DNA of 64,000 bases, from assembly GCA_022828145.1 (NCBI GenBank), contig JAJEJA010000046.1:1-64000 (forward strand). The letters run 5' to 3'. This DNA is from Candidatus Poribacteria bacterium (GTDB lineage: Bacteria; Poribacteria; WGA-4E; WGA-3G). Made by a program: the position numbers and the translations under genes. Under the pieces are notes generated by a model that was given only the letters and a program-made list of their open reading frames with translations, ran no database searches and was not told the origin of the DNA. Positions within the stretch are counted from its first letter, which is position 1; the number at the start of each line of letters is the position of its first letter. Below, one piece after another: positions 45,162 to 47,055 of the stretch.

Positions 45162-45241
45162 GCATTAATTTCAATTTTAAGATTCACGATATAGCAAACT
45201 TACATACAAGTGAAATTCATTTTTTAAGGAGGATGAACAAC

Positions 45242-45937
45242 ATGAAAATGCTATCAGTATTAGCAGCACTTATCTTGATGATACCTTTTTTAGTTATCTA
45301 TTCAAGCAACATGGCACAGGCTGAGGAAGTGTTGGGTACAGGAACAGGATCACTGTTAGGAGGCGACCTAACCGACCCAGAAGACGATGGGGATCCTGAA
45401 GCAGATAAAAATTACAACGCCATTTTCTCATCCAGCGATGAACCCGGGTTCGCGGGCGGAGAATTCGCGTTTAACGTCTTTGATAACGTACTTGGCGGCG
45501 GTAACGCAAAATGGTGCTGAGGCCCTGGCGGAGGCATTCCGGCGGAAGGCCTACACGTGACAGCTGAGTTTGATGTACCTTATGCACTGACACACTTCAC
45601 AGTCTCGTCAGCGAACGATGTTCCTAACAGAAACCCTATAGAGTGGGAAATTCAAGGATCAAACGATGGCGAGGATTTTACCACTATTTTTTCTCACGAC
45701 GGTGATAGTTTTTGGAACGAGCGACTGCAAGTCGTCCGTTTTGATGCAGGAGACGATTTTGACGTTCAGAAAGTCGGGTATCGGTTTTTCCGACACGTTA
45801 CTTTTAACACCGTAGCGAACCCAGCTGGAGCGTATTTTCAAATCGGCGAAATCGAATACTTTGGCGATGATAAGTTCCCTGTAGAGGCAGAAGGAAAACT
45901 TGCAACCCAATGGGGAAACATCAAAAAAGTCCGATAA
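45242..45937 (+). CDS. Secreted discoidin/F5-8C-like protein with in-frame UGA (selenoprotein candidate or nonsense mutant)
   Basis: The start is set at ATG 45242, nine bases after AAGGAGG; an ATG at 45233 touches the ribosome site. A signal peptide (MKMLSVLAALILMIPFLVIY to AQAEE) is followed by FNVFDNVLGGGNAKWC and then TGA (45518-45520), residue 93. The frame stays open with no other stop for 138 more codons to 45937. It encodes VTAEFDVPYALTHFTVSSAN, NPIEWEIQGSNDGEDF, FRHVTFN and the tail EGKLATQWGNIKKVR. A galactose-binding-like (F5/8 type C) fold is likely. The UGA follows a Cys codon TGC, one base from a second Cys codon. A hairpin begins at the UGA itself. Intact downstream coding sequence and the conserved tail suggest either readthrough with selenocysteine or a very recent nonsense change. 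Confidence 0.75.
45520..45552 (+). promoter_or_regulatory. Hairpin directly after in-frame UGA (SECIS-like candidate)
   Basis: AGGCC (45520-45524) pairs with GGCCT (45548-45552). Inside, GCGGA (45528-45532) pairs with TCCGGC (45538-45543) with one bulged G, leaving a GGCAT loop. The UGA adenine starts the stem. The position resembles bacterial selenocysteine-insertion hairpins, but the coding sequence is GC-rich and glycine-rich here, so chance pairing is possible. Confidence 0.4.
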
Positions 45938-45956
45938 ACACAAATATCACCTATTT

Positions 45957-46110
45957 AACGTGAGTTTGATAAATCAGAACAAATAACTTACGTAGGTTGG
46001 GTTGAGGAACGAAACCCAACATCTTGACCCATTATAGAGCAATACATGTTGGGTTTCGTTCCTCAACCCAACCTACAACGCATATTGCATTTAATTATCA
46101 AACTCACGTT
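45957..46110. mobile_element. MITE-like element with AACGTGAGTTTGAT ends, copy 2
   Basis: This copy is almost identical to 39659-39812, including length (154 bases) and inner GTAGGTTGGGTTGAGG arms, and lies in the same orientation. It starts 19 bases after the stop of the UGA gene. The gap to 46308 has a hairpin-like GGCTTGAATCTAAGTAATTA region and otherwise nothing certain. Confidence 0.8.
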
Positions 46111-46308
46111 ATTTACTAAAATGGCTTGAATCTAAGTAATTACTTAGGTTTGAGTCGTTTTCATTTCCACAACAAATAGAAACAGATAGAAGTGGTATAA
46201 TTTCAAAAAATATCTGTATTTTAATTCCCGACAAATAAGAAAACATGGTATACTATTAACAGCAATCCATGATATATATTAGAACACAACATTTAAAGGA
46301 GATTAAAA

Positions 46309-47055
46309 ATGTCAAAAGTTAGTTTAGTACTCTTTTTGTGTCTACTCTTAGCTATAAGCAGTGTCTGTATAGCAAATGTTGCTGAAGATGGACTCGTTGT
46401 ATTCTTACCCTTTGATGAAGGTGCTGGTAAATCGGTAAAAGATGTAACAGGAAATGGGCATGATGGCGCATTTGAAGGCGCACCGAAATGGGTCGATGGA
46501 AAATTCAATTCAGCACTTGAATTTGACGGTAAAAATGACTATGTGGTCGTCCCAGATAACAACGCATTAGATTTTACAAACAAAATTACAATGATGGCAT
46601 GGTTCAGTCCAAATGATGATTTAACAAGCAGACGTCTCATGGTAAAAAACGATTCTATCTTCGTCATTTTTGACTTTGGAAATACAAAAAGCATAGATTT
46701 CCTCGTAAAACCGAATAACCTATTCGCTGAATCATCAACTATCGACTGGAAAATCGGTGAATGGTACCACTTTGCGGGGACATTCGACGGAAAAACACTC
46801 CAAGTTTTTGTCAACGGTAAACTGGAAGGTGAAGCAGACAATCCAACTGATATTACACCCTCAGACTTAGATCTCTGGATTGGTGGTGATGATTACGGAC
46901 GAGAATCGGATATGTTCCCAGGGAAAATCGATGAAGTACGGATATATAATAAAGTCCTAACTGAATCACAAATCCAGCGCGTGATGGATACCCCACAAGA
47001 TGTTGACGCAAAAGGAAAACTTACAACGACTTGGGGAAAAATAAAGGGTCGGTAA
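46309..47055 (+). CDS. Secreted LamG-domain protein with WGxIK C-terminal tail
   Basis: The 248-residue protein has a signal peptide (MSKVSLVLFLCLLLAISSVC). One LamG/concanavalin-A-like domain follows: LVVFLPFDEGAGKSVKDVTG, GKFNSALEFDGKNDYVVVP, ITMMAWFSP, WYHFAGTFDGKTLQVFVNGK and GKIDEVRIYNKVLTESQIQ. Such domains bind sugars or proteins outside the cell. The end, VDAKGKLTTTWGKIKGR, has the same pattern as two other secreted proteins of this window. AAAGGAG lies upstream, and a -10 box TATACT is at 46249-46254 with a weak -35. The gene is preceded by an AACGTGAG element. Confidence 0.9.
   Translation: MSKVSLVLFLCLLLAISSVCIANVAEDGLVVFLPFDEGAGKSVKDVTGNGHDGAFEGAPKWVDGKFNSALEFDGKNDYVVVPDNNALDFTNKITMMAWFSPNDDLTSRRLMVKNDSIFVIFDFGNTKSIDFLVKPNNLFAESSTIDWKIGEWYHFAGTFDGKTLQVFVNGKLEGEADNPTDITPSDLDLWIGGDDYGRESDMFPGKIDEVRIYNKVLTESQIQRVMDTPQDVDAKGKLTTTWGKIKGR

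Follow-up and report, generated by a model that had tools for sequence, protein, structure and literature searches.

Mammalian thioredoxin reductase ends in GCUG, where an adjacent Cys and Sec, followed by Gly, can form a vicinal selenylsulfide. The protein considered here would present the same order of Cys, Sec and Gly, but it lacks a flavoprotein or partner domain and its pair would lie inside a beta-sandwich rather than at a mobile C-terminus. In bacteria, a Cys directly before Sec is also found in the CU-motif selenoproteins SaoC, SaoL, SaoB, HgcA, MbdU and KCU-star (PMC13188914 Table 1), several of which are tied by name to mercury or metals; unlike the present protein, none of them is F5/8C or CBM32-like by the names and domain identifiers given in that table. 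The other system to be compared is the CBM32, or F5/8C, domain, as found in 4a41 of the C. perfringens GH89 and in the GH92 modules of 7nsn, with which the protein appears to share its fold and an aligned conserved Trp. It differs from CBM32 by a Cys at the position of the ligand His followed by Cys or Sec, by a conserved NDxPxRDP loop and an N-terminal DLTDPEDDG segment, and by being a stand-alone domain instead of a glycosidase module. The canonical galactose site of CBM32-5 consists of H1392, Y1395, R1423, N1428 and F1483 (excerpt of PMC3313936). As for the signal that recodes UGA, the bSECIS model, as summarized in a section of PMC13188914, comprises an apical loop of 3–9 nt with a G in its first two positions, an upper stem of 4–16 bp, a distance of 16–37 nt between the UGA and the loop and a minimum free energy (MFE) of at most -7.5 kcal/mol.

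The window, that is, the whole 64,000-nucleotide stretch of DNA that was analysed, corresponds to contig C48 of a 5.06 Mb Poribacterial genome in 123 contigs, estimated to be 94.3% complete. It holds a gene whose frame contains a single TGA (codon 93, 45518–45520) directly preceded by TGC, and which then runs for 138 open codons until it closes at TAA 45935–45937; the TGA, the TGC before it and the 138 open codons had been reported in the original prediction and are all present in the sequence. With high confidence, this gene is read as encoding a selenoprotein in which the UGA stands for selenocysteine, a reading for which the frame, the machinery genes, the Cys/TGA exchange among homologs, the selection on the full-length product and a conserved hairpin core all argue at the sequence level. 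The insertion of Sec as such is somewhat less firm, although likely. TGA also serves as an ordinary stop in this DNA, as had been stated before, ending 4 of 31 long ORFs hand-picked from the ORF list of the window (including those at 2515 and 28534); TGA is therefore not recoded throughout the genome. A gene caller that reads TGA as a stop would split the gene in two. From the ATG the protein begins with MKMLSVLAALILMIPFLVIYSSNMAQAEE..., a typical signal-peptide start, and a signal peptide is predicted, by reading of the sequence, at approximately residues 1–28. At the other end, the C-terminal tail noticed earlier as shared (GKLATQWGNIKK) indeed has similar counterparts in the following gene (46309–47055) and in other proteins of this genome. 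Tails of the form GKLxTTWGxIK close at least five otherwise different proteins of the window genome (45893–45934 and 47014–47052 in the window; L020:295-1131 on the minus strand, L022:817-1806 and L023:823-1641), and this type of tail may be a sorting or anchoring signal.

Features of the candidate selenoprotein locus (window coordinates)
Feature	Position	Strand	Description
Candidate selenoprotein gene	45242..45937	+	231 residues with U93; predicted signal peptide, one F5/8C (discoidin/CBM32-like) domain, C-terminal tail
Ribosome-binding site AAGGAGG	45226..45232	+	Read from the sequence; ATG start 45242 lies 9 bases downstream
TGC TGA, Cys92 and candidate Sec93	45515..45520	+	Reading frame; Cys-Cys or Cys-TGA in homologs
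C-terminal tail GKLATQWGNIKKVR	45893..45934	+	Similar tails in other proteins of the same genome
Likely SECIS	45532..45552	+	Lower stem AGGC/GCCU, A-G mismatch, upper stem UUCC/GGAA, apical loop GGC 45541-45543
Hairpin of the original prediction	45518..45555 (given as 45520-45552)	+	Loop GGCAU 45533-45537; mutually exclusive with the 45532-45552 hairpin

All the genes needed to make and insert selenocysteine, which the original prediction had named as the first thing to look for, are found in the window genome. The matches to selA (593.5 bits), selB (354.4 bits), selD (369.7 bits) and tRNA-Sec (selC, 75.7 bits) each exceed the curated cut-off, and tRNA-Sec lies approximately 110 bases after selB on contig C64. 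The selD gene contains an in-frame TGA of its own within the CAGU motif, so at least one member of an established selenoprotein family is encoded here. Eight other genomes carry TGA copies of the family described here; selB and a selD with one TGA are found in all eight, and tRNA-Sec and selA in seven of eight each. selA was not found in G034 and tRNA-Sec was not found in G035, both of them draft genomes (estimated completeness 95% and 93%, respectively). Across the phylum, selA is over its cut-off in 71 of 84 genomes, and the selD genes of the Poribacteria genus to which the window belongs (L010, L146–L153) are themselves selenoprotein genes, with one in-frame TGA in 9/9 genomes inspected. 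According to an excerpt of PMC5649159, most sponge-symbiont bins, across several phyla, contain both SelA and SelB.

Related loci are numerous: the family was found in 48 of 84 genomes of the phylum, and 53 related loci were recovered in one contig scan. The window genome itself has two full-length paralogs, of which L020 (71% identical) reads TGC TGC without a stop and L021 (69%) reads TGC TGA, the same codons as the window gene; homology is conserved on either side of the TGA. A motif scan gave 94 distinct sequences at the site, the window copy included, of which 81 read Cys-Cys, 12 Cys-TGA and 1 TGA-Cys (distinct sequences being those that differ in the 300 bases around the site, among the fetched loci and exclusive of some stop-free matches). 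Four relatives that fall outside the motif pattern are all Cys-Cys (L058, L063, L082 and one copy in L060), distant relatives in Verrucomicrobia and Planctomycetota records read Trp-Cys-Cys, and the matches at L072–L076 stop short of the site. A looser scan for other residue pairs at the site produced one match, a Sphingobacterium locus unlike the true site. Position 93, which the original prediction proposed to compare, reads Cys or TGA in the homologs scanned. That neither TAA nor TAG is seen at the site carries no weight here, TGA being the only stop within one step of TGC. Within the window's genus, 9 of 18 genomes carry a TGA form, and none of the 66 other genomes of the phylum does so at this site; the Cys-TGA state is spread over 12 distinct genes (window included) in 9 genomes, and each full-length TGA copy has one TGA only. 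A TGA copy and a Cys copy stand in tandem in two genomes, G031 and G044; tandem Cys-Cys and Cys-TGA copies on one contig are seen at L024 and L028.

These counts bear on three other explanations of the TGA. The first is a fault of assembly or sequencing, which might be suspected because the window is known from a single draft genome; its probability is negligible, given that the homologous TGA is present in independent assemblies of 9 genomes, among them the single-contig genome G045. The second is a recent nonsense mutation from TGC to TGA, leaving a pseudogene or a truncated 92-residue protein. Such a change requires one step only, produces a codon that is a working stop in the window, and would not be alone in a family that does decay, since L057, L113 and L053 are frameshifted and G080 holds a 5'-truncated TGA-bearing fragment without the site. 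Against it stand the presence of TGA at the same codon in 12 genes of 9 genomes, two of them paralogs in the window genome, and the length after the site, which is usual in 10 of the 12 Cys-TGA genes (L028 is cut by the contig end and L113 is frameshifted). Frameshifts are also few, affecting 3 of 79 Poribacterial rows. Synteny identifies L057, one of the frameshifted loci, as the ortholog of the window gene; there the TGA occupies the first Cys codon (TGG TGA TGC, L057:3274-3279), and a one-base frameshift follows further on. This swap of TGA and Cys may represent a decaying copy or an error.

Selection on the part of the gene downstream of the TGA also argues against a nonsense mutation. In 19 pairs that each join the window copy or L021 to another usable copy (11 TGA copies, with L057 and L113 left out and L028 partial), dN/dS was 0.08–0.37 after the TGA and 0.16–0.43 before it, and the window copy compared with its closest TGA relative, L024, gave 0.145 after the TGA. 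With dN/dS well below 1, the sel genes, the Cys/TGA exchange and the TGA in 9 genomes, the choice that the original prediction had left between a selenoprotein and a recent Cys-to-stop mutation falls to the selenoprotein, and the mutation is now highly improbable. The selection data support read-through as such without specifying the inserted residue, and they would also suit a third explanation, read-through without selenium, where the UGA would be filled with Cys, Trp or some other residue by a suppressor tRNA, or where leaky termination would yield both the short and the full-length product. This explanation is just as improbable as the nonsense mutation, in view of a site that exchanges only with Cys in the sequences scanned, the complete Sec machinery of the genome, the single TGA of the full-length TGA copies and a SECIS-like hairpin in 13/13 TGA copies. 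A quick tree was built from 82 rows after masking of the site, and 34 of its 78 inner branches have weak support. On it, the 13 TGA rows require a minimum of 3 state changes, compared with a mean of 12.3 for shuffled labels; a single origin of the TGA state may be compatible with the starred branches of this tree.

The hairpin that would direct the decoding is not the one first proposed. The original prediction placed a stem directly at the UGA, and this structure is real insofar as it is the minimum-energy fold of the window sequence (-18.7 kcal/mol for 45518–45557; z = -2.1, with 9 of 200 shuffles as stable; z = -0.6 within a 64-nt stretch), favoured by MFE over the hairpin at 45532–45552. 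As the SECIS of the family it was rejected, with its loop only 12 nt from the UGA and a stem that is impossible in the five TGA copies with a short loop: imposed on the remaining TGA copies, it reaches -5.2 to -14.5 kcal/mol in the seven long-loop copies and +5.8 to +10.4 kcal/mol in the five short-loop ones. The likely SECIS is the hairpin at 45532–45552, which falls within the published bSECIS limits (loop of 3 nt, GGC; upper stem of 4 bp; 20 nt after the UGA; -9.4 kcal/mol). The energy of this element (+10 to +45) passes the -7.5 kcal/mol limit in 12 of 13 TGA copies, L021 falling short at -6.8 kcal/mol, and in the short-loop TGA copies (n = 5) the same element takes the form of a 6- to 7-bp stem with the loop GGC at +17. 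The selD of the window genome has a comparable hairpin (loop CGGGU at +16) of -6.2 kcal/mol, which is likewise short of the limit.

Comparison of TGA and Cys copies supports the same element. The core UUCC-GGN-GGRA is present in 13/13 TGA copies and in 8/66 Poribacterial Cys copies, a contrast for which Fisher P values overstate the independence of the rows because the TGA copies are mutually related. Its parts are less exclusive: the closing C-G pair is found in 13/13 TGA and 27/66 Cys copies and the GG loop in 13/13 and 23/66, while the lower-stem glycine codon GGC is used in 8/8 long-loop TGA copies and 3/66 Cys copies. Many of the SECIS pairs are common to the Cys copies too because the amino acids are conserved. 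Looser definitions gave 13/13 TGA versus 25/66 Cys copies when four standard pairs of any kind sufficed and a G stood within the first two loop positions, and 10/13 versus 16/66 for a six-pair rule with G-U allowed. A general scan for any hairpin within the stem, loop and spacing limits separates the groups poorly (13/13 TGA copies, 42/66 Poribacterial Cys copies and 13/15 Cys copies from outside), so the homologous hairpin was used instead. A criterion of Watson-Crick pairing in the lower stem (13/13 versus 0/66) was discarded as circular, having been drawn from the TGA copies themselves.

With regard to the fold, the window protein scores 27.2 bits against the Pfam model F5_F8_type_C (PF00754), under the gathering cut-off of 28.2, whereas its paralog L020 passes with 31.7; no NCBIfam model matches either protein up to an E-value of 0.1. 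An AlphaFold2 model built from 42 aligned sequences (pLDDT 84.2, pTM 0.78) has as its best PDB matches in Foldseek 7nsn (1.5e-9), 4oyu (3.1e-8) and 4a41 (7.4e-8); the best matches comprise a GH92 enzyme, the muskelin discoidin domain and CBM32 modules. By this model the window protein has a discoidin/CBM32 fold. The location of the pair within the fold relies on weak profile alignments, which place W91-C92-U93 on W-H1392-T of CBM32-5 (4a41, E 0.0058) and on W-H-S of 2j7m (E 0.024); 4a42 has a V at the aligned His position, and the alignment to the strongest profile match, 7nsn, leaves the site uncovered. Residue numbering of the chain in the profile alignment agrees with H1392, R1423 and N1428 as given in the excerpt of PMC3313936. 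Aligned by eye to 4a41, C92 falls on H1392, P95 on Y1395, A124 on R1423 and N129 on N1428, with the family-invariant N125 and R130 within one residue of R1423 and N1428, and F1483 lies beyond the stretch covered. The canonical galactose ligands of CBM32-5 are thus not kept in the window protein according to this by-eye alignment, and a galactose-binding CBM32 is therefore not claimed. The pair probably sits in the ligand cleft, which is likely to about the same degree as the export of the protein; placed at the ligand-His position, it would probably constitute a vicinal selenylsulfide or selenol-thiol in that cleft. Cys92 and Sec93 are the only Cys or Sec of the mature window protein. No further Cys exists in the domain in 76 of 79 Poribacterial rows, the other three being frameshifted, so the pair in these proteins must work unaided or together with another molecule; among 15 rows from outside Poribacteria, 4 contain one further Cys.

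The role of the pair is where the selenoprotein reading leaves most latitude. A redox function for Cys92-Sec93 is conjecture, with chances slightly under even. Alternatively, the pair in the selenoprotein could have no redox function and form a rigid platform, similar to a vicinal disulfide, for a sugar or another ligand. The CBM32-like fold, the location of the pair at the ligand-His position in the weak alignment and the retention of Cys-Cys in distant Verrucomicrobia and Planctomycetota relatives would suit such a platform, and adjacent-residue disulfides are counted among the rare features mostly found at functional sites (part of PMC12102755). On the opposite side, the window protein has a Pro at the position aligned to CBM32 Y1395. 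Sec is as a rule employed at places where the selenolate takes part in a reaction, which also weighs against a non-redox platform. Most uncharacterized selenoprotein families are likely redox according to a section of a 2026 review (PMC13188914). A rigid platform is less likely than not, yet it is the only one of the rival explanations with a substantial share of the probability.

Taking the selenoprotein reading forward, SelB and Sec-tRNA-Sec would decode the UGA at 45518–45520 as selenocysteine under the direction of the SECIS hairpin at 45532–45552. The product would be an exported protein made up of a signal peptide, one F5/8C (CBM32-like) beta-sandwich and a C-terminal tail, the last possibly an anchor or sorting signal. 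Its vicinal pair might then bind a soft metal or an oxidant, or switch ligand binding according to its redox state. In its fullest form, the proposal is a selenium lectin, an exported CBM32-like protein with a cleft around Cys-Sec that would bind a glycan, a metal or an oxidant at the cell surface under the control of a selenylsulfide switch; this is put forward tentatively and with less assurance than a redox role in general.

By its sequence, the gene very probably represents a new family of selenoproteins, predicted to be exported and set apart by name from the families listed so far. No discoidin, F5/8C or CBM entry appears by name among the 119 prokaryotic families and subfamilies tabulated in PMC13188914, the main text of which does not contain the word discoidin, and none is among the nine new deep-Sep families as they are described in the excerpt of PMC12013277. 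Within the literature covered, subscription papers and preprints being outside its scope, there was no report of a selenoprotein in Poribacteria or with an F5/8 type C domain, no discoidin or carbohydrate-binding-module selenoprotein by title or opening of the abstract among the papers listed, and nothing joining selenylsulfide, vicinal and Cys-Sec. The gene would add to the bacterial selenoproteome a family with an F5/8C, CBM32-like fold and, if export is right, would give an extracytoplasmic Sec in a fold of the binding type and not of the oxidoreductase type. Moreover, the presence of Cys and Sec paralogs in one genome, and in tandem in two genomes, makes the benefit of Sec over Cys testable on a small single-domain protein.

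In 36 loci compared, the genes flanking the window copy recur only at its syntenic ortholog L057 among the 14 largest clusters, and several small clusters of neighbouring ORFs are found around Cys copies among the clusters listed. Just 3' of the gene, nested perfect inverted repeats span 45956–46111, with inner arms of 31 nt (45992–46022 and 46046–46076) and outer arms of 17 nt (45956–45972 and 46095–46111), and resemble a small mobile element or a long terminator.
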